From the NCBI RefSeq assembly GCF_001190925.1, contig NZ_CP011072.1, positions 744,001 to 808,000 on the forward strand: 64,000 nucleotides of DNA, read 5' to 3'. Both the position numbers and the translations under genes were made by a program. This document shows, piece by piece, positions 27,659 through 43,404 of the stretch. The notes under the pieces were generated by a model. That model was given only the letters and a program-made list of their open reading frames with translations. It did no database searches and had not been told where the DNA came from. Source of the DNA: Azoarcus sp. CIB (GTDB lineage Bacteria; Pseudomonadota; Gammaproteobacteria; Burkholderiales; Rhodocyclaceae). The first letter of the stretch is position 1. The number at the start of each line of letters is the position of its first letter.

Positions 27659-29176
27659 GCCGGGGCTCCTTCGGAGTTGGATGCGGTGCTCGCGGCGGCC
27701 TCGCGGGCCTTCTGCGCCTTGCGCTCGGCGGCGCGGCGGGCGGCGGCTTCGGCCTTTTCGCGCGCTTCGCGGTCGAAGGCGCTCGGCGCGCGCGTCGGCC
27801 ATCCGGCGCGTCGCATCCGTGCGCTTCCGGTCGCGCTCGCGCGTGGCGAGTTCGCCCTTCGCATGGTTGAAGGCCTGCACGAGCGGGATGCGGGCGGGGC
27901 ACACGTACGCGCAGCAGCCGCAGCCGATGCAGTCGTGCAGACCGAGGGCGACGGCGGCATCGAGCGCGCCGTTGGCGATGCGGGCGTTCATCTCCAGCGG
28001 CAGCAGGCCGACCGGGCAGGCCCGGGTGCAGCTGCCGCAGCGGATGCAGGGACCGGGTTCGTCGCGTGCGACTTCGGCGGCGGACAGCGCGAGGATGCCG
28101 CTGCAGCCCTTGACCACGGGCACCTTGGCCGAGGGCAGGACGAGGCCCATCATCGGGCCGCCCATGACGAGGCGCGCGGGTTCGCAGCGCGCCCCGCCGG
28201 CGAAGGCGAGGAGGTCGTCGACGAGGGTGCCGATGGGGACCTCGTAGTTGCCGGGCTGGGCGAGGGCTTCGCCGTTGAGCGTCATGACGCGGCTGACCAG
28301 CGGGCGGCCGAGGTCGATCGCCTGATGGATCGCGAAGGCGGTGCCGACGTTGTGCACGAGCACCCCGACGTCGGCGGCGCGCGACTCGGCGGGCACCTCG
28401 ATGCCGGTGAGCTCGATGATGAGCTGGCGGTCCGATCCCATTGGGTAGCGCGCGGGGACGACGCAGACTTGCACGTCGGCGTGGCCGTCGGCGGCGGCGC
28501 GCATCGCGGCGATCGCCTCGGGTTTGTTGTCCTCGATGCCGATGCGCACCTCGCGCGCGCCGGTGGCGTGGCGCATCAGCACGGCGCCGCGCACGATGCC
28601 CGCCGCGCGTTCGCGCATCAGGCGGTCGTCGCACGACAGGTAGGGTTCGCATTCGCTGCCGTTGAGGATCAGCGTGCGGATGCGCGAGCGGTGGCCCAAG
28701 CCGAGCTTCACCGAGGCGGGAAAGGTCGCACCGCCCAGGCCGACGATGCCGGCTTCGGCGACCCGGCGCGCGAGTTCCTCGGGTGAGCGGGCGAGCGGGT
28801 CGGCGAGGCCTTCGAGCGGCGCCCAGCGGTCTTCCATGTCGCTGCGCAGCGTGATCGCCGTCATCTCGAGACCCGAGGGGTGCGGCGCGGTGATCGGCCC
28901 GATCGCGACGATCTCGCCGGAGGTCGGCGCATGCACCGGGGCGGAGATGTTGCCCGTGGCGGTCGCGAGGCACTCGCCCTTGAGGACCTTCTGGCCGATG
29001 CGCACGACCGGCTCCGCGGCGGCGCCGACGTGCTGCGACAGCGGCAGGTAGAGGAGCGGCGGCACCGGCAGGCGCCGGATCGGCGCTTCCGAGGCCGGGC
29101 GCTTACGCTCGTCCGGATGCACGCCCCACGGTTCGCTGCGGGCGAGGTGGCGGAAGATCTTGTCGAAGAATCCCAT
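27655..29176 (-). pseudogene. rnfC: Rnf complex subunit RnfC with a one-base frameshift near the C-terminus
   Basis: Cytoplasmic NADH- and ferredoxin-facing subunit. The N-terminal frame is intact: GIVGLGGATFPASVKL, and two 4Fe-4S motifs, CIRCGSCTRACP and CIGCGCCAYVCP. After about residue 465 the frame turns into Arg/Pro-rich nonsense and joins rnfD. In the +1 frame the expected Ala/Lys/Glu-rich tail (FDREAREKAEAAARRAAERK) continues to a TGA that overlaps the rnfD ATG. The span is 507 codons plus one base. Removing one base of GG/CC at about 27778-27781 gives a normal 506-aa RnfC. Both iron-sulfur sites lie before the shift. Sequencing error is likely. Confidence 0.9.
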
Positions 29177-30539: not shown

Positions 30540-31209
30540 TCAGCGGGATGCGAGGACGATGTCGAAGGTGGCCGCGGCGGGGGTGCCGGCCTTCGCCGCG
30601 GCGACGTCGACGCTCAGCGCCTCGCGCTCGGGCGGGGCATAGCCGTTGCCCTCGCGGTTGTTGCCGCGGAAGTACATCTGCGTGACGAATTCGGCGCGCC
30701 CGGGCTGGGCGACGCGGAAGTGGATGTGCGGCGGCCGCGAGCCGTAGTTGCCCGGCAGGACCGTGAGGAAGCTGTAGCGGCCCTGGGCGTCCGTCATCGT
30801 GCGGCCGAAGCCCTGGAAGGCGGAGTCGCGCGTGCGCGGATCGACGCCGGGGTGGCGGTAGCGGCCGCGCGCGTCGGCCTGCCAGATCTCGACGGCGGCG
30901 TCTGCGACCGGTTTTCCCGCGGTGTCGCGCACCGCGCCGCTGACGCGCAGCAGCGCGCCTTCGACGGCAGGTCCCCGTTGCGCCCGCGAGCTTCGTCAGG
31001 TCGGCGTCGATGTCGCCGTTCCAGTCGAGCGGGTAGAAGGGGCCGATGTCGTCCTCGGGCGTGGGGCGCAGGGTGGCGGCGCCGGCCGGGAGGGCGGTGG
31101 CGGTCAGCCCGAGCGGCAGGAAGGGGAGGCCGCCCAGCCAGCGCAGGAGGTGGCGGCGCAGCGTGCCGCGGGTCGTGGCGGGGCCGTGGGGGCGGGAAGG
31201 GGCGTGCAT
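30540..31209 (-). pseudogene. Intradiol dioxygenase (protocatechuate 3,4-dioxygenase beta-like) with a one-base frameshift
   Basis: Secreted-type intradiol ring-cleavage family protein. The first part (to about residue 78) has an RR-containing signal region (LRRHLLRWLGGLPFLPLG) and DDIGPFYPLDWNGDID. The rest, in the +1 frame, holds all four iron ligands of the family: Tyr in GRYRHPG, Tyr in PGNY and the two His in RPPHIHF. The span is 223 codons plus one base. Removing one C of the CCCC at 30973-30976 joins both parts as LAGATGPAVEG into a 222-aa protein. Likely sequencing error, otherwise a recent pseudogene. It lies between two NifA-controlled units but has no sigma-54 element. Confidence 0.85.
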
Positions 31210-31286: not shown

Positions 31287-31302
31287 TGTCACAAACCCGA
31301 CA
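31287..31302. promoter_or_regulatory. NifA upstream activator site for the ferredoxin operon
   Basis: TGTCACAAACCCGACA fits TGT-N10-ACA and lies 79 bp upstream of the -24/-12 element. Confidence 0.82.
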
Positions 31303-31380
31303 TTCGCGACGCGGCATGTCAAGGCTGCGATTGGCCGTGTTGTTATTTGTTTTCAGTGGCTTGGGTCGGTAGGCCGGTCT

Positions 31381-31395
31381 TGGCACCGTCCTTGC
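31381..31395 (+). promoter_or_regulatory. Sigma-54 promoter of the ferredoxin-unknown-rseC operon
   Basis: TGGCACCGTCCTTGC is a perfect -24/-12 element (TGGCAC-N5-TTGC), 86 bp before the ferredoxin gene. Confidence 0.92.
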
Positions 31396-31481
31396 GATAA
31401 GTCCCGTGAGCCTCCCGCGCCGTCGTTGTCGCGACGGCGCGGGGAATCGGATCCCATCCACCCGTCCTGAAGGAGCCCACC

Positions 31482-35084: not shown

Positions 35085-36473
35085 TCAGTGACCAGCGTGA
35101 GCCGGCGCATCCACGGCCGGCGCGGGGCCGGTTCGGTGGAGGTCGGGCCGGATGCTGGCGGGGGTGACGTGCTGTTCATGCGCGTGCAGTTGCTCCATGA
35201 AGACATTGCCCACCTCGAAGATCAGATCGCGCGTGCCGCGATAGCCGACAGTGACCTTGTGTGCGACGCCGAGCCGGTCGAAGGTCGGCAGGCCGGCGCG
35301 CCAGAAGGGGATGCCCAGCCGCGCCGCAGCCTGGCGGCCGTGCGAATGCGTGACCAGCAGGTCGCAGCCGGCGGCGTGCTCCTCGAAGTCGCCCAGGTCG
35401 CCGATGCGCACCGTCTCCGCAGCGACGCGCGCGAGCACCGGGGCGTCCTGCGGCGCGATCGCGCAGGTCACCTGTGCGCCCATGTCGGCGAAGAAGTGCG
35501 ACAGCGCGAACAGCAGGTCCGGCTCCGCGGCGATCGCGACCTTCTGCTCGCCGAAGTAGAAATGCCCGTCGAGCATCGCGTCCTGCAGTTGGCTGCGCCG
35601 GCGGCGGTATTTCATCGGCACGTCCTGTTCGGACAGATCCGACAGCAGCGCGATGAAGGCGTCGCAGGCGGCGAGCCCGGACAGGCGCTCGAACACGCGG
35701 AAGGGCACGCCGGCCTTCTTCTCCAGCAGCGCTGCGGCCGGGCGCATCTGCTCTCCGATCGCGATCGTGATCGCCGAGGCGCCCATGCGCTTCACGTCCT
35801 CCAGGCGCGTGCCGCCCAGCGTGTGCGGCAGGAAGGTCTCCGGGATGTGGCCGTCGAGCGAGCCCGAGAGGTCCGGCAGCACGATGGGCGTGAGGCCGAA
35901 GGCTTCGACCGTCTCGCGGATCTCCTCGATGTCGCCCGGCGTGAGATGGCAGCCCGCGAGGATGTTCACCTGCCACGGCGTGCGCACCTTCGTCGGCGGC
36001 ACCAGTGCGTCGACCATGGCAGTGACGGCCTTCGCCCAGCCGTCGGAAAAGCCGCCGACGAAATCCGGCGTCGTCGCGAACACCACCTCCGTGTCGGCGA
36101 GTTCCGGATGCTTCTCGCGGATCAGCTTCAGGAAGCCCGCGACGTCGTCGCCCTTGGCCTCCGTGATGCCGGTCGAGCACAGCCCGATCAACGCCGGGTT
36201 CGCGCGCTTCTTGATGTTGAGCAGCGCCTGCTCGATGTTCTCCAGGCCGCCGAGGATGGTCGTGACCTCGTTCATCGCGGTCGTCTGCAGCGGGATGGTC
36301 TCGCGGAAGTGGCGCACGAACAGCACCAGCCCGAAGGCCGTGCAGCCCTGCGAGCCGTGCAGCAGCGGCAGCGCGCGGTCCATGCCGAGGAAGGCGAGCG
36401 CGGCGCCGATCGGGGCGCTCATCTTCAGCGGGTTCGTCGTGCAGGCTTTCCTGCCGGGAATGATCGTGGCCAT
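35085..36473 (-). CDS. nifN: NifN, beta subunit of the NifEN cofactor scaffold
   Basis: NifD/K-like scaffold protein (462 aa) that with NifE matures FeMo-cofactor. Seen: MSAPIGAALAFLGMDRALPLLHGSQGCTAFG with the cluster Cys, HFRETIPLQTTAMNEV, and LCSTGITEAKGDD. First gene of nifN-X-DUF269-DUF683-fdxB-nifQ. Unusually, nifE is not directly upstream: an oppositely oriented kinase gene lies between. nifN has its own sigma-54 promoter and NifA site. Confidence 0.96.
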   Translation of the reverse strand: MATIIPGRKACTTNPLKMSAPIGAALAFLGMDRALPLLHGSQGCTAFGLVLFVRHFRETIPLQTTAMNEVTTILGGLENIEQALLNIKKRANPALIGLCSTGITEAKGDDVAGFLKLIREKHPELADTEVVFATTPDFVGGFSDGWAKAVTAMVDALVPPTKVRTPWQVNILAGCHLTPGDIEEIRETVEAFGLTPIVLPDLSGSLDGHIPETFLPHTLGGTRLEDVKRMGASAITIAIGEQMRPAAALLEKKAGVPFRVFERLSGLAACDAFIALLSDLSEQDVPMKYRRRRSQLQDAMLDGHFYFGEQKVAIAAEPDLLFALSHFFADMGAQVTCAIAPQDAPVLARVAAETVRIGDLGDFEEHAAGCDLLVTHSHGRQAAARLGIPFWRAGLPTFDRLGVAHKVTVGYRGTRDLIFEVGNVFMEQLHAHEQHVTPASIRPDLHRTGPAPAVDAPAHAGH

Positions 36474-36506
36474 GATGCGTGCTCGAAAGGGTACGAGCAC
36501 TGCACA

Positions 36507-36521
36507 GCAGGAACGGTGCCA
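36507..36521 (-). promoter_or_regulatory. Sigma-54 promoter of nifN
   Basis: Read on the minus strand, TGGCACCGTTCCTGC fits the -24/-12 element (TGGCAC-N5-NTGC), 33 bp before nifN. It makes nifN independent of nifE. Confidence 0.85.
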
Positions 36522-36605
36522 GCGGTGCATTCTCAGTAAAAACAGGCACATGGCCGCGGCGCACCGGCGTGCGAACGGCGCTTTGGCTGATGTCCGACAC
36601 GAACG

Positions 36606-36621
36606 TGTCGCAAGCGCCACA
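36606..36621. promoter_or_regulatory. NifA upstream activator site for nifN
   Basis: TGTCGCAAGCGCCACA, a perfect TGT-N10-ACA site, 85 bp upstream of the nifN -24 element. The rest of the gap up to the kinase start (36622-36921) shows no gene and no clear promoter. Confidence 0.83.
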
Positions 36622-36921
36622 AATCCCGCGTAGCGCGAGTGCAGATCGATCCCGGCGGCAATCCCGCACGGCAATAGAGGCCGCGCGCGGTATGATGACG
36701 CCCGGCTGGAGTCGTGCGTCGACGCCTCGTCCGCAGGCAGTCGCACACGAGTTCGGGCGCGCCCGGCAGGTATGTCCGGGAACCCGACATTCAGGACACG
36801 AGGAGCGCAGGATGCCCGTTTTCCAGGAGCCGCTTACGCGATTTGCCTCTTGCGGCGCATTTTCTCCCGACCTCAGCGGGACCGCCGCGCGATGGTCTCT
36901 CGACCGTGGAGCGCACACGAG

Positions 36922-39384
36922 ATGAAGTACCGTCGGGTCGCAGCCCGCACGGCCGAACTGGCCGCGGTCAGCGCCTCGCTGCGCGAAGCCAATGCCGAGC
37001 AGCAGGCGATCTTCGACACCGCGACCTCGGGCATCGCGCTCATCAAGGACCGCGTGCTCGTCCGCGGCAACCGGCGCCTGCACGAGATGTTCGGCTGGCC
37101 GCCGGGCGAACTCGTCGGCCAGCGCACGGCGGTCTGGTATCCCGACGAGGCCGCGCACGCGGCGGGCGGCGAACCGGTGTATGCCGCGATCTGGCGCGGC
37201 GAGTCGCACCGGCGCGAGCAGCAGCTCATGCGCCGCGACGGCTCGCTGTTCTGGGCGCGCCTGACCGGCACCGCGGTGGAACCGTCGGACCGCAGCAAGG
37301 GCTCCGTGTGGGTCATCGACGACATCTCCGCCGAGTTCGAAGCCATCGAGCGGATGGAGAAGGCCCGCGCGCTCGCCGAGGATGCCGCACGCATCAAGTC
37401 GGATTTCCTCGCCAACATGAGCCACGAGATCCGCACGCCGATGAACGCCATCATCGGCATGACCTACCTCGCGCTGCGCACGCAGCTCGACGCTCGTCAG
37501 CGCGACTACCTCGAGAAGATCCAGGCGTCCAGCCAGCACCTGCTCGGCATCATCAACGACGTGCTCGACTTCTCCAAGATCGAGGCCGGCAAGCTCATCA
37601 TCGAGCGCATCGACTTCGACCTCGAGAAGACCGTTGCAGACGTCGGCGCCCAGATCGTCGAGAAGACCAACGCGAAGGCGCTCGAACTGGTCATCGACGT
37701 CGCGGCGGACGTGCCGGCCAGCCTCGTCGGCGACCCCCTGCGCATCAGCCAGATCCTGCTCAACTACGCCAACAACGCGGTCAAGTTCACCGACCGTGGC
37801 GAGATCGTCCTGCGCATCCGGCGCGAGCAGTTCGTGGACGGCGACGTCGTGCTGCGCTTCGAAGTGCGCGACACCGGCATCGGCATCGATGACGAACTGC
37901 GCGACCGCCTGTTCCGCAGCTTCGAACAGGCGGACACCTCGACCACGCGCAAGTACGGCGGCACCGGGCTGGGGCTCGCGATCAGCAAGCGGCTCGCCGG
38001 CATGATGGGCGGCAGCGTCGGCGTCGACAGCCAGCCCGGCGCCGGTTCGACCTTCTGGTTCACCTGCCGCCTCGGCATCGGCCGCTCCGAGGGACACCTG
38101 CTGATGCCCGCCCCGGACCTGCGCGGCCTGCGCGCCCTGGTCGCCGACGACAACCTCAGTTCGCGCGAGGTGCTCGCCGAGATGATGCGCTGCATGACCT
38201 TCCATGTGCACACCGTGGACTGCGGTCGCGCAGCGGTCGCCGAAGTCGAGCGCGCGGCGCACGCCGGCGAACCCTACGACATCGTCCTGATCGACTGGCA
38301 GATGCCCGAGCTCGACGGCGTGGCCGCCGCGCGCGCGATCGGCCAGCTCGGCCTGCCGCGGCTGCCCGTGCGCATCGTCGTCACCGCCTACGGGCGCGAG
38401 GATGTCGCGCGCGCGGCCGTGGGTGCCGGCGTCGACGACATCCTGCTCAAGCCGGTCACCGCCTCCGCGCTGTTCGACACCGCGATCCGGCTGCTCGACG
38501 GCGCCCTGCGTCCGGCCAGGCCGCACGCCGCCGCTGGCGAAGCGCCGGCCGACCTCGCCGCGATCCGCGGTGCCCGGCTGCTGCTCGTCGAAGACAACGA
38601 ACTCAACCAGGAGGTCGCGAGCGAGCTGCTCGGCGCCGCCGGCCTCCGCGTCGATATCGCCTGCAACGGTGCAGAAGCCGTCCAGCGCGTGCAGCAGGCC
38701 GCCTACGACCTCGTGCTCATGGACATGCAAATGCCGGTGATGGACGGCGTGACCGCGACGCGCGCGATCCGCCGCCTGCCTGCCTGCGCCGACCTGCCCA
38801 TCGTCGCGATGACCGCCAACGCGATGGCGGGCGACCGCGAACAGTGCATCGAGGCGGGCATGAACGACCACATCGCCAAACCGATCCACCCCGATCGCCT
38901 GTGGGCCGCGCTACTGCGCTGGATCGCGCCGCGCGGCGACGCAACCGCCGCCGCCACGTCGGGCGCAGCAGGGGCGCTGTCCGCCGCTCCGTGCGCCGTC
39001 CTCGCACGGCTCAGGCGGATTTCCGGCCTCGATCCCGATCTGGGCGTGCGCCGCCTGATGGGGAAGGAAGACTTCTACCTCTCCCTGTTACGCAAGTTCG
39101 TCACCGGCTACGGGGATTTCACCGCGCGCCTGGATGCCGCCCTCGCGGCAGGTGACCTCGCCGCCGCCGAGCGCCTCGCCCACTCGCTGAAAGGCCTGGC
39201 GGGGCAGATCGGCGCGGCGCTGCTGCAGGAAGTTGCGGCCGAACTCGAGCGGCGTATCCACGAGGGTGCCCCCGCCGCGGACATCGACGAGGCGCGCGAC
39301 CGCGCCGCGCGCACGCTCGCCGACCTGATCGGAGCACTGTCGCAGGCGCTGCCGGCGCCCGAAACGCCCGCGTCGGCCGTGTAG
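36922..39384 (+). CDS. Hybrid sensor histidine kinase (PAS-HisKA-HATPase-REC-REC-HPt), apparently without its sensor
   Basis: Multi-step phosphorelay kinase (820 aa from ATG 36922). Order: short coiled segment ([18 protein letters not shown]), PAS domain (about residues 25-140), HisKA with phospho-His168 in [10 protein letters not shown], HATPase with DTGIGI and [10 protein letters not shown], receiver 1 (Asp458 in LIDWQMPE), receiver 2 (Asp601 in LMDMQMPV) and C-terminal HPt (His754 in [10 protein letters not shown]). No membrane span and no signal peptide. The first lines resemble the cytoplasmic start after a lost membrane sensor, and the frame upstream (to 36772) has no family character. 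Strand is opposite to nifE and nifN, which flank it. No response regulator with an output domain is adjacent. Confidence 0.88.
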
Positions 39385-39415
39385 CGTCGCGGCCCTCCGA
39401 GCCTCCCGCGGCCGC

Positions 39416-40832
39416 TCACTCCGCGGCCACGCGCTCGCCCCAGCCTTCGGCCAGCTCCCACGGCGCCGGCTGCCGCACCTGCGACCAGATCGGGTTGTAG
39501 AGCGCCTTGTCGATCTCGGCGACGAGATTCACCACCCCGTCGTAACCCGCGTAGGCGTGATGGCGCTCCTGGTTGATCTCGACCCACGGCGTCTTCGCCT
39601 TCAGCGCGACGAACTGCGAGCGCCCGCCCGAGAGCATCACGTCGGCCTGCGACTCCTTCAGCATCCGGTACATCTCGCGCGGCGGCAGCTCGTCGAACAT
39701 GTGCGCGTCGGTGCCCATGATCTCGACCACCTTCGCGCGGTCGCTCTGCGTCGATTTGCGCATCGAGGTGCCCACGATCTCCATGCCCACCTCCTGCAGC
39801 GCCGCCACCACGCTCCACGACTTCACGCCGCCCGTAGAAAAGCAGCACCCGCTTGCCCGCCAGCCGCGCGCGGTACTTCTCCAGCCGCGCCCACGCGCGC
39901 GCCTCCTCGCGTGCGATCAGCGCCTCGGCGCGCGCCGGCAGGTCGGCCGGCGCGCCGCGTTCGACCAGCAGGCGCGAGATCCGGCGCAGGCAGTCCGACA
40001 TGTCCGCGATGCCGTAGAAGCTGCCCTCGAAGAAGGGGATGTCGTAGCGCTCGTCCATCTTGCGCGCGATGTTGATCAGCGCCTGCGAGCACAGCATGAT
40101 CGCCGCCTTGGCGCGGTGCGAGCCCGCGATGTCGCGGTAGCGCGCGTCGCCGCAGAAGGTCGCCAGCACGCGGATGCCCAGCTCGTCGAAGAGCGGCTTC
40201 ACCTGCCAGAACTCGCCGACCACGTTGTACTCGCCGATCAGGTTGATGTCGCAATCCGTCGTATATTCCGGCTCCTGCGTGCCGACGACATAGTCGAGCA
40301 GCGCCTCGCCGCCCAGCTTGTTGCCGAGGTTCTTGCTGCCCGCGAAGCCGGGCGCGTTCACCGGGATCACTGGCGTGCCGAACTTCGCGCTCGCCGCCTT
40401 GCACACCCCCTCGACGTCGTCGCCGATCATTGCCGGCAGGCAGGTCTGGTACACGAAGATCGCCGGCGGATTCACCTTGTCCACGATCTCCTTGATCGCG
40501 CGGTACAGGCGCTTCTCGCCGCCGTAGATCACGTCGAACTCCGCCATGTCGGTCGTGAAGCCCGTACGGTAGGTCTGCGGACCGGACGAATACACGTGGC
40601 GCGAATCCCACGAATTGCCCTCGCACGCAATCGGCCCATGCACCAGATGGGCGACGTCCACCACCGGCTGCAGCGCGATCTTCGCACCGTCGAAGGCACA
40701 GCCGCCGGCCGCGGCGCCGGGCGTCAGCGGCTTCTTGCAGCCCTCCTTGCGCGCCTTGTCGCTCTTCGCCTGGTTCGTCGCGCAGCCGGGTTCGACCAGC
40801 AGGCTGTCGATTCTCTGTTTGAGTGCGCTCAT
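39416..40832 (-). pseudogene. nifE: NifE, alpha subunit of the NifEN scaffold, with a one-base frameshift
   Basis: FeMo-cofactor scaffold subunit. Seen in the main frame: [56 protein letters not shown] and [22 protein letters not shown]. After VLLFYG the frame fails. The rest ([20 protein letters not shown] to the end at 39416) is in another frame. One extra base in CCC at 39831-39833 explains it, since [14 protein letters not shown] is restored by its removal. The span is 472 codons plus one base, and the corrected protein is 471 aa. As NifE is essential for cofactor synthesis and everything else is intact, a sequencing error is most likely. Confidence 0.93.
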
Positions 40833-40887: not shown

Positions 40888-40902
40888 GCACGATCGATGC
40901 CA
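40888..40902 (-). promoter_or_regulatory. Sigma-54 promoter of nifE
   Basis: Read on the minus strand, TGGCATCGATCGTGC has the -24 GG and -12 GC at correct spacing, 55 bp before nifE. Confidence 0.75.
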
Positions 40903-40961: not shown

Positions 40962-41000
40962 TGTCGAACTCGCGACAACGCTTTTGTCGAACTCGTGACA
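40962..41000. promoter_or_regulatory. Two tandem NifA upstream sites for nifE
   Basis: TGTCGAACTCGCGACA (40962-40977) and TGTCGAACTCGTGACA (40985-41000) are both perfect TGT-N10-ACA sites, spaced 23 bp apart (about two helical turns), so both face the same side of the DNA. They differ at one base. Confidence 0.87.
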
Positions 41001-41089: not shown

Positions 41090-41596
41090 ATGAAGAAAGC
41101 CCTCGTTTCCCTCGCCCTGTGCCTCGCCGCAATGCCCGGCCCCGCCTTCGCCACGCCCGGAGAAGTGCCCGAAGGCGGCACCCTGCGCCAGATACCGATG
41201 CAGGGCCTCACCGCCGGCTCCAAGCTGCTCGGCGACTATCGCGGCAAGCCGCTGATCATCAACGTCTGGGCGAGCTACTGCCCGCCCTGTCTCGCCGAGA
41301 TGGGGTCGCTGGAGCGCCTGTCGAAGCGCTACGGCAAGCAGTTCAACGTCATCGGCATCTCGATCGACGACTACCCCGAGCGCGCCACGGCCTTCCTCAC
41401 CCAGGCGAAGACCAGCTTCCCGCACTTCATCGACCACAAGCTCGCGCTCGAGAACATGCTCGGCGCCAACCGCATCCCGCTCACGGTGCTGGTCGACGCC
41501 GACGGCAAGGTCGTGCACAAGGTGTTCGGCGCCAAGGAGTGGGACAGCCCCGAAACCGTCGAGGCGATCGGCAAGGCCTTCGGCCTGCGCATGTAG
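41090..41596 (+). CDS. TlpA/ResA-like periplasmic thioredoxin
   Basis: Exported thiol-disulfide protein (168 aa). A Sec signal peptide is followed by mature TPGEVPEG, and the active site WASYCPPC sits in a TlpA fold with INVWASYCPPCLAEM and VLVDADGKVVHKVFG. It is divergent from nifE across 257 bp. An upstream in-frame ATG (41039) is possible, but 41090 gives a clean signal peptide (MKKALVSLALCLAA). Family members reduce apocytochrome c or other periplasmic thiols. Confidence 0.88.
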   Translation: MKKALVSLALCLAAMPGPAFATPGEVPEGGTLRQIPMQGLTAGSKLLGDYRGKPLIINVWASYCPPCLAEMGSLERLSKRYGKQFNVIGISIDDYPERATAFLTQAKTSFPHFIDHKLALENMLGANRIPLTVLVDADGKVVHKVFGAKEWDSPETVEAIGKAFGLRM

Positions 41597-41734
41597 GCCG
41601 TCCAGGCCGTCCGCGGTGGGCATATAGCCCCGGAATACGGGGTTTCAGGCTGAATTTGCGCGCGGAACATTACAGGATTGTTTCAGCTGGTAAAATCGCG
41701 CCCTGATTCCACTCCCCGGCAGGCAAAAACAATC

Positions 41735-42373
41735 ATGTTCTCCCGCTTCATGCCCCGTGAGGGACAGTTCTTCACCCTGTTCAACGCCCATGCAGACGAG
41801 ATCGTGGCCGGCGCCAAAGCCCTGGTCGCGCTGATGCAGGCCGTCGGAAAGGACGCATCGACAGCGGCGAAGACCACCGCCGACATCGACGAGATCGAGA
41901 CCCGCGCGGACAAGCTGAACCACGACGTGATGGCGCTGATGCACTCCACGTTCATCACGCCGCTCGACCGCGACGAGATCCATCAGCTCATCTCGCACAT
42001 GGACGACGTGCTCGACACCATCCAGGACGTCGCCGAAACCGTCTCGCTGTACGACATCGTCGAAGTGACCGAGGACGCCCTGCGCATCGCCGAGCTGTCC
42101 CTGTCCTGCGCCGAGAGCGTGCGCGCGGCGGTCGTGCTGCTGTCCAACATGGACAACGGCCGCGAGATCCTGCGCATCTGCCACGAGATCGACGGCTTCG
42201 AATCCGACGCCGACCGCGTCCTGCGCAAGGCGCTGTCGGGCCTCTTCCGCGAAGAGCCCGACGTCCGTGTGGTCCTGAAGATGAAAGGCGTGTACGAACT
42301 GCTCGAATCGGTCACCGATCGCTGCAAGGACGTCGCCAAGATCCTCGAGGCCATCGTGCTCGAAAACTCCTGA
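41735..42373 (+). CDS. DUF47/PhoU-like phosphate transport regulator
   Basis: Cytoplasmic all-helical protein (212 aa), PhoU-related DUF47 (YkaA) family. Seen: EGQFFTLFNAHADEIVAGAK, HSTFITPLDRDEIHQLISHMDDVLDTI and the metal-binding EIDGFESDADRVLRKAL. The gene directly precedes a Pit-type phosphate permease (23 bp), the usual pairing. A TAAAAT -10-like element is at 41691-41696. Confidence 0.92.
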   Translation: MFSRFMPREGQFFTLFNAHADEIVAGAKALVALMQAVGKDASTAAKTTADIDEIETRADKLNHDVMALMHSTFITPLDRDEIHQLISHMDDVLDTIQDVAETVSLYDIVEVTEDALRIAELSLSCAESVRAAVVLLSNMDNGREILRICHEIDGFESDADRVLRKALSGLFREEPDVRVVLKMKGVYELLESVTDRCKDVAKILEAIVLENS

Positions 42374-42396
42374 CCCGCGATCTCCAGGAAAACGAC

Positions 42397-43404
42397 ATGG
42401 CAACTTTGGAGATCGGGCTCGCCACGGTGATGTTTCTCGTGGTGCTGGCCCTGCTGTTCGACTTCATGAACGGCTTCCACGATGCGGCGAACTCGATCGC
42501 GACGGTCGTCTCGACCGGCGTGCTCAAGCCGCAGCATGCGGTCGCGTTTGCGGCCTTCTTCAACGTCGTCGCCATCTTCATCTTCCAGTTGAAGGTCGCG
42601 AGCACGATCGGCAAGGGCACCATCGACCCCGCGGTCGTCGACCACATCGTCGTGTTCGGCGCACTGGTCGGGGCGATCGCGTGGAACGTCATCACCTGGT
42701 ACTACGGCATCCCGTCCAGCTCCTCGCACGCGCTGATCGGCGGCCTCGTCGGTGCCGCGGTCGCCAAGGGCGGTTTCGGCTCGTTGCTCGCCTCCGGCCT
42801 CATCAAGACCGTCGCCTTCATCCTCGTGTCGCCGCTGCTGGGCTTCCTGCTCGGTTCGCTGCTGATGGTGGGCGTCTCATGGTTATTTTTCCGAACGCCC
42901 CAGCGCAAGGTCGACAAGTGGTTCCGCCGCCTGCAGCTCGTCTCGGCCTCGCTCTACAGCCTCGGCCACGGCGGCAATGACGCGCAGAAGACCATCGGCA
43001 TCATCTGGATGCTCCTGATCGCCGCCGGCATCAGCCAGAGCACGGACCCCGTGCCGACCTGGGTCATCGTCACCTGCTACCTCGCCATCGGCCTCGGCAC
43101 CATGTTCGGCGGCTGGCGCATCGTCAAGACCATGGGCCAGCGCATCACCAAGCTGAAACCGGTCGGCGGCTTCTGCGCCGAAACCGGCGGCGCGATCACG
43201 CTGTTCCTCGCCACCGCGATGGGCATCCCGGTGTCGACCACCCACACCATCACCGGCGCCATCGTCGGCGTCGGCTCCGCGCGCAAGGTCTCGGCCGTGC
43301 GCTGGGGCGTGGCGGGCAGCATTGTCTGGGCGTGGGTTCTCACGATCCCGTGCAGCGCCCTCATCGCCGGCGCCGCATGGTACGTCGGCCGCATGATCCT
43401 CTGA
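42397..43404 (+). CDS. pit: Low-affinity inorganic phosphate transporter, Pit family
   Basis: Membrane phosphate/proton symporter (335 aa) with about ten spans. It has the repeated PHO-4 signature: FDFMNGFHDAANSIATVVSTGVL at the start and GHGGNDAQKTIGIIW in the second half, plus PVSTTHTITGAIVGVG. Forms an operon with the DUF47 gene. Confidence 0.95.
   Translation: MATLEIGLATVMFLVVLALLFDFMNGFHDAANSIATVVSTGVLKPQHAVAFAAFFNVVAIFIFQLKVASTIGKGTIDPAVVDHIVVFGALVGAIAWNVITWYYGIPSSSSHALIGGLVGAAVAKGGFGSLLASGLIKTVAFILVSPLLGFLLGSLLMVGVSWLFFRTPQRKVDKWFRRLQLVSASLYSLGHGGNDAQKTIGIIWMLLIAAGISQSTDPVPTWVIVTCYLAIGLGTMFGGWRIVKTMGQRITKLKPVGGFCAETGGAITLFLATAMGIPVSTTHTITGAIVGVGSARKVSAVRWGVAGSIVWAWVLTIPCSALIAGAAWYVGRMIL

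Follow-up and report, generated by a model that had tools for sequence, protein, structure and literature searches.

NifE and NifN form one scaffold complex, and close known counterparts of the locus reported here include NifA/sigma-54 nifEN(X) units with adjacent genes, such as those of A. diolicum (L154) and Azospira oryzae (L012). They encode the proteins found here, nifX directly follows nifN in both, and the A. diolicum nifE promoter region carries two NifA-type sites, as in the window (the whole stretch of 64,000 nucleotides from Azoarcus, or Aromatoleum, sp. CIB that was analysed). In that type nifE and nifN overlap by 8 nt, whereas here a 2.5-kb antisense gene lies between them and nifN has a predicted promoter of its own. 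No published description of this split was found among titles and abstract openings. The features concerned are the following.

35085-36473, minus strand: nifN (TIGR01285, 604.6 bits against a curated cut-off of 326.8; start set with the six-genome alignment)
36506-36521, minus strand: -24/-12 (sigma-54) element of nifN (same core in all six split genomes)
36584-36599, minus strand: TGT-N10-CCA, a near-match to a second nifN NifA-type site (by eye; 22 nt downstream of the first)
36606-36621, minus strand: NifA-type site TGT-N10-ACA of nifN (in 6 of 6 split genomes)
36922-39384, plus strand: hybrid histidine kinase, PAS-HisKA-HATPase-REC-REC-Hpt (domain matches)
39416-40832, minus strand: nifE, with a frame break near 39831-39835 (TIGR01283 in two frames)
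40888-40902, minus strand: -24/-12 (sigma-54) element of nifE
40962-41000, minus strand: pair of NifA-type sites (TGT-N10-ACA) before nifE, starting at 40962 and 40985
41091-43404, plus strand: tlpA-like, DUF47 and pit-like resident genes between nifE and nifK

The kinase start at 36922 is a judgement (the longest open frame begins at 36772), the tlpA-like gene scores under its model's cut-off, and the third resident is one we take to be pit. A minus-strand nifX directly follows nifN, and NifA (698.9 bits) and RpoN (466 bits) are both encoded in the same genome. From 22947 to 57728, nif genes are interleaved with residents (the dioxygenase-like gene and tlpA-DUF47-pit) that form an unbroken series in relatives lacking nif at the locus, an interleaving common to the window, A. 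diolicum and the KH32C-like genome G008. Near the dioxygenase-like gene, 94 bp separate a NifA-type site from a plus-strand sigma-54 match (31287-31396).

The separation of nifE from nifN by an antisense kinase, as the first-pass annotation described it, is real. The sample of the genus comprised 17 genomes with 15 nifN copies above cut-off: six copies are split from nifE by the kinase, and the other nine directly follow nifE, with anything from an overlap to a gap of about 120 bp between the two. The split order nifN-kinase-nifE occurs in G000 (the genome of the window), G006 (evansii), G011 (Aa7), G013 (toluclasticum), G014 (tolulyticum) and G015 (toluolicum). The window does have frame breaks relative to its relatives, in nifE, the dioxygenase-like gene and the rnfC/rnfD region, which could raise the suspicion that the order itself is an assembly or sequence artefact, but this is hardly credible when the same order stands in six genomes and nifE is in a single frame in five of these; an assembly join is thus ruled out. 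Both genes are under purifying selection, with median dN/dS of 0.131 for nifN (six genomes) and 0.127 for nifE (five genomes, the window left out). Aromatoleum sp. CIB and A. toluolicum, each with one nifN above cut-off, reduce acetylene (PMC7825797, Table 2), and CIB grows without fixed nitrogen (PMC4207700). For the split strain A. evansii, acetylene reduction is not detected in Table 2 of PMC7825797 and the strain is marked positive in Table 1. A. toluclasticum MF63 (L152/L008) has nif genes; Table 1 of the same paper gives none.

The frame break in nifE was not mentioned in the first-pass annotation. TIGR01283 matches the gene in two frames, 39831-40817 and 39458-39889, which jointly cover profile positions 3-459 and score 462.9 and 150.4 bits, each below the curated cut-off of 505.1. 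At the break the window differs by one base in length from all seven relatives compared, and open nifE frames cross the spot at nine loci of seven relatives. A second nifE was not found in the genome, where the other TIGR01283 matches are nifD, nifK and nifN. Because nifE is intact in the five split relatives, and because strain CIB fixes nitrogen and reduces acetylene, the break probably reflects an error in the recorded genome sequence. The survey of frame breaks (24 records; 36539, 40871 and 42390 set aside as outside known genes or in chance frames) also flagged the rnfC/rnfD region at 27713-27774 (two relatives) and the dioxygenase-like gene at 30970 (five loci).

Relatives with intact nifEN do exist, so that neither of the objections named in the first-pass annotation, an assembly join or a split common to all close relatives, applies. 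In A. diolicum and G008, nifE ends 8 nt inside nifN, and the pair lies in the same chromosomal neighbourhood as in the window, between sucCD and tlpA (in A. diolicum about 10.6 kb of other genes stand between tlpA and nifE, L164 15734 to L154 7860). Since these relatives outside the CIB group keep the overlap, the split is, on the evidence of gene order, derived from overlapping nifEN. A rooted rpoB tree of 16 genus rows and 3 outgroup rows (the partial G012 and one outgroup row were omitted) places all nine genomes with the kinase in a single clade (100/100) that excludes G008, A. diolicum and five genomes lacking nif. The kinase has an orthologue, at least 86% identical, in 9 of the 17 genus genomes, and its best relative outside the genus reaches 62% (199 sampled family genomes, four candidates scored per genome). 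Because the carriers are one clade and no close orthologue is seen outside the genus, the kinase gene was most likely gained on the branch leading to the CIB group.

From the gene order, its conservation and polarity, the coding constraint and a nifE fossil in G007, we infer the cause of the rearrangement, and consider the following account probable. An ancestral nifEN, with an 8-nt coding overlap as in close relatives, would have been interrupted in the ancestor of the Aromatoleum CIB group, where an antisense hybrid histidine kinase gene came to separate the two genes. A NifA/sigma-54 promoter directly before nifN, similar to that of nifE in an intact relative and perhaps copied from it, most likely kept nifN in the nif regulon; both genes are still under purifying selection, and nitrogen is fixed by strains where the split nifN is the sole copy found. 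The kinase itself is an ordinary signalling gene, most likely a passenger. What the split removes is the 8-nt overlap, which suggests that translational coupling may be what was given up.

This account carries a cost. In G010 and A. toluvorans the kinase adjoins tlpA with no nif gene at the locus, and sucCD, the dioxygenase-like gene (in A. toluvorans), kinase, tlpA, DUF47 and pit are contiguous, so that several clean nif deletions must be supposed. The two genomes, together with the interleaving of nif blocks and residents in the window, could instead mean that the kinase is an old resident beside tlpA and that nif genes moved in piecewise around the residents, with no insertion into nifEN at all; because of these genomes we retain this reading, although we think it unlikely. 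It is opposed by G008 and A. diolicum, which branch outside the kinase clade and have nif genes among the dioxygenase-like and tlpA-DUF47-pit genes with nifEN intact and no kinase. It is opposed also by G007, which lacks nifN and keeps the kinase under constraint: between kinase and tlpA (L146:11200-11700) G007 has a nifE fragment (E = 3e-20) and a nifE-promoter fragment (E = 1e-6, both against A. evansii), with a TGT-N10-ACA site in the fossil region (by eye), so G007 lost nif from the split form. Against it, too, is one NifA-like motif (by eye) kept in the corresponding gap of G010, the gap of A. toluvorans having none; a nif coding fossil was looked for in these two gaps and not found.

If the kinase broke nifEN, it does not appear to have done so as a regulator. 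The protein has PAS, HisKA and HATPase domains, two receiver domains and an Hpt domain. Its layout recalls the HisKA-HATPase-receiver-Hpt arrangement of BarA-type kinases (NF008318, 510.3 bits), from which it differs in scoring below the cut-off of 890, in its PAS input domain and in having two receiver domains. The nine orthologues retain the H-box, N-box, G-boxes, both receiver aspartates and the Hpt histidine, so the kinase looks active as far as its residues tell, and its median dN/dS of 0.181 (nine genomes, G007 included) indicates purifying selection. An extra N-terminal PAS (36772-37100) is present in G010 (by Pfam) and in G013, G014, G015 and G016 (by likeness) and missing from G000, Aa7, evansii and G007, a distribution that on the rpoB tree suggests two losses. 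These intact catalytic residues might be taken to mean that the insertion is regulatory, the kinase, or a transcript convergent with nifE, tuning NifE relative to NifN. Kinase and nifE are convergent with stop codons 31 bp apart, and since a search of the gap between them gave no terminator-like site and shuffles fold nearly as well as the gap itself (z -1.8 and -1.3), read-through is possible; two other signalling genes are antisense in the nifE/nifN gap of the Ideonella group. Yet constraint on the kinase continues in G007, which has no nifN, and in G010 and A. toluvorans, where it does not lie near nif, and the neighbours of other separated nifN genes include some with no resemblance to signalling genes, for example a flavodoxin-like and a TPR-like protein (labels by eye). 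We regard a regulatory insertion as very improbable. Among the features examined, the kinase is tied to nif by place only, and a role as nif regulator is not supported; because it persists where nif is lost or not nearby, it is probably a passenger.

The promoter elements of both genes are present as the first-pass annotation had claimed: a -24/-12 element and a TGT-N10-ACA site before nifN, and an element with two sites before nifE. Any one such motif is weak evidence, because shuffles also give matches: TGT-N10-ACA occurs 9 times in the window and on average 4.25 times in a shuffled copy, and strict sigma-54 matches number 9 and 2.4 respectively (20 shuffles). The weight of the candidate nifN promoter is carried by conservation, not by single motifs. 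Its GG-N10-GC core, at -47, is identical in 6 of 6 split genomes, the upstream TGT-N10-ACA site (UAS) stands at -148 or -149 in all six, and the UAS block is near-identical among them in a setting of variable flanking sequence. A sigma-54 match together with a UAS at a fitting distance was seen before nifN at 5 of the 77 named loci examined, which are the five split Aromatoleum/Azoarcus loci. The putative promoter is presumably active. That a second NifA promoter accommodated the split stands insofar as a conserved nifN promoter accompanies it; which came first is not readable from the window, and the parallel case in Ideonella leans towards the promoter. The further claim that NifE and NifN levels are set independently does not follow, both promoters being of the same NifA/sigma-54 type.

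Where the nifN promoter came from may be seen in an intact relative. Scored against eight upstream regions from G008, the six nifN promoters rise clearly above shuffles for the nifE region alone (mean 44.5 versus 22.6 for shuffles, sd 2.1), the seven other regions giving z of at most 1.7. Much of this similarity is the 15-nt -24/-12 core. With the motifs excluded, results are mixed: the mean score is reached by a fraction of shuffles of 0.001 for G008, 0.004 for toluclasticum, 0.044 for Aa7, 0.063 for toluolicum and 0.16-0.31 for the remaining four. That the nifN promoter is a copy of a nifE promoter is on these figures a plausible suggestion and no more. The nifN and nifE upstream regions of Ideonella aquatica have 17 nt in common, a score reached by 0 of 1000 shuffles; the same comparison within I. 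alba gives p = 0.34.

Separation of the two genes is not confined to the genus, and the statement that nifE and nifN are adjacent in nearly all nif clusters is too strong for this order. We evaluated two sets of loci, which overlap in part. The named set holds 80 nifN loci kept from 356 confirmed relatives; nifE is upstream on the same strand in 76, within 264 bp in 69 and farther off in 7 (five Aromatoleum/Azoarcus and two Ideonella loci). In the 110 nt preceding nifN, 10 of 79 named loci have a sigma-54-like match: all seven farther-off loci, two of Methylocystis type with gaps of 263-264 bp, and L067, a locus at which nifE was not found. Matches thus accompany 7 of 7 distant and 2 of 69 near loci (Fisher p = 1.6e-8, kinship ignored). 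In the order-wide sample, 54 of 399 genomes carry nifN, with 55 matches; once the window's own nifN and L339, a fragment without upstream DNA, were set aside, 53 genes were evaluated. For 44 of these nifE lies within 172 bp, and one has a sigma-54 match; for the other nine nifE is more than 500 bp away or absent from the 0.8-3.2 kb of upstream DNA seen, and eight have such a match. The notion that the inserts are always signalling genes was dropped, since other separated loci have other neighbours.

A parallel is found in the genus of I. alba, where 11 of 16 genomes have nifN. In two genomes the nifE/nifN gap holds an antisense chemotaxis receptor, in a third such a receptor flanks nifN where the contig ends, and an antisense GGDEF protein (diguanylate cyclase) lies in the gap of three others (Pfam was run on one receptor and two GGDEF proteins). 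Elsewhere in the group there is one 198-bp gap, one genome with the genes on different contigs and one, G231 (L280, L285), with nifE and nifN about 113 kb apart on one contig and an own sigma-54 match before nifN. Loci with both an antisense insert and a sigma-54 match are L056, L079, L272, L274 and L275. All nine rearranged or 198-bp-gap genomes have a match before nifN, and their nifN promoters are alike; no match was found before nifN in two genomes with gaps of about 35 and 528 bp. The 198-bp-gap genome clusters with the GGDEF carriers (100/100), which fits a nifN promoter older than the inserts, or the loss of an insert.

The split is thus a real, derived and recurrent kind of nif operon break, not unique to the CIB group. 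A more general process can be proposed, tentatively and as something we would not yet bet on: the nifE/nifN junction may break repeatedly, mainly after nifN has gained a NifA/sigma-54 promoter, in many cases copied from that of nifE, and may then be a safe landing site, which antisense signalling genes (for a hybrid kinase, a chemotaxis receptor and a diguanylate cyclase) would have filled on at least three occasions. The frequency of sigma-54 matches, 8 of 9 separated against 1 of 44 close genes, suggests a rule by which an essential operon can break with its function kept, and such a rule would be useful for rebuilding nif clusters. The host clade consists of pollutant-degrading bacteria, in which a stranded nifN with an apparent nif switch of its own can, it seems, still leave a working pathway, and a nitrogen-fixing clade with nifE and nifN in separate units is a natural test of NifE/NifN coupling. 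Another known counterpart is the Ideonella arrangement (L056, L079; G230, G234, G236): as in the window, a signalling gene lies antisense between the two genes, and nifN is preceded at about 50 nt by a -24/-12 match. It differs in the insert, a chemotaxis receptor or diguanylate cyclase, and in the UAS-like site, TGT-N10-CCA, and in Ideonella similar promoters occur with different inserts or none.
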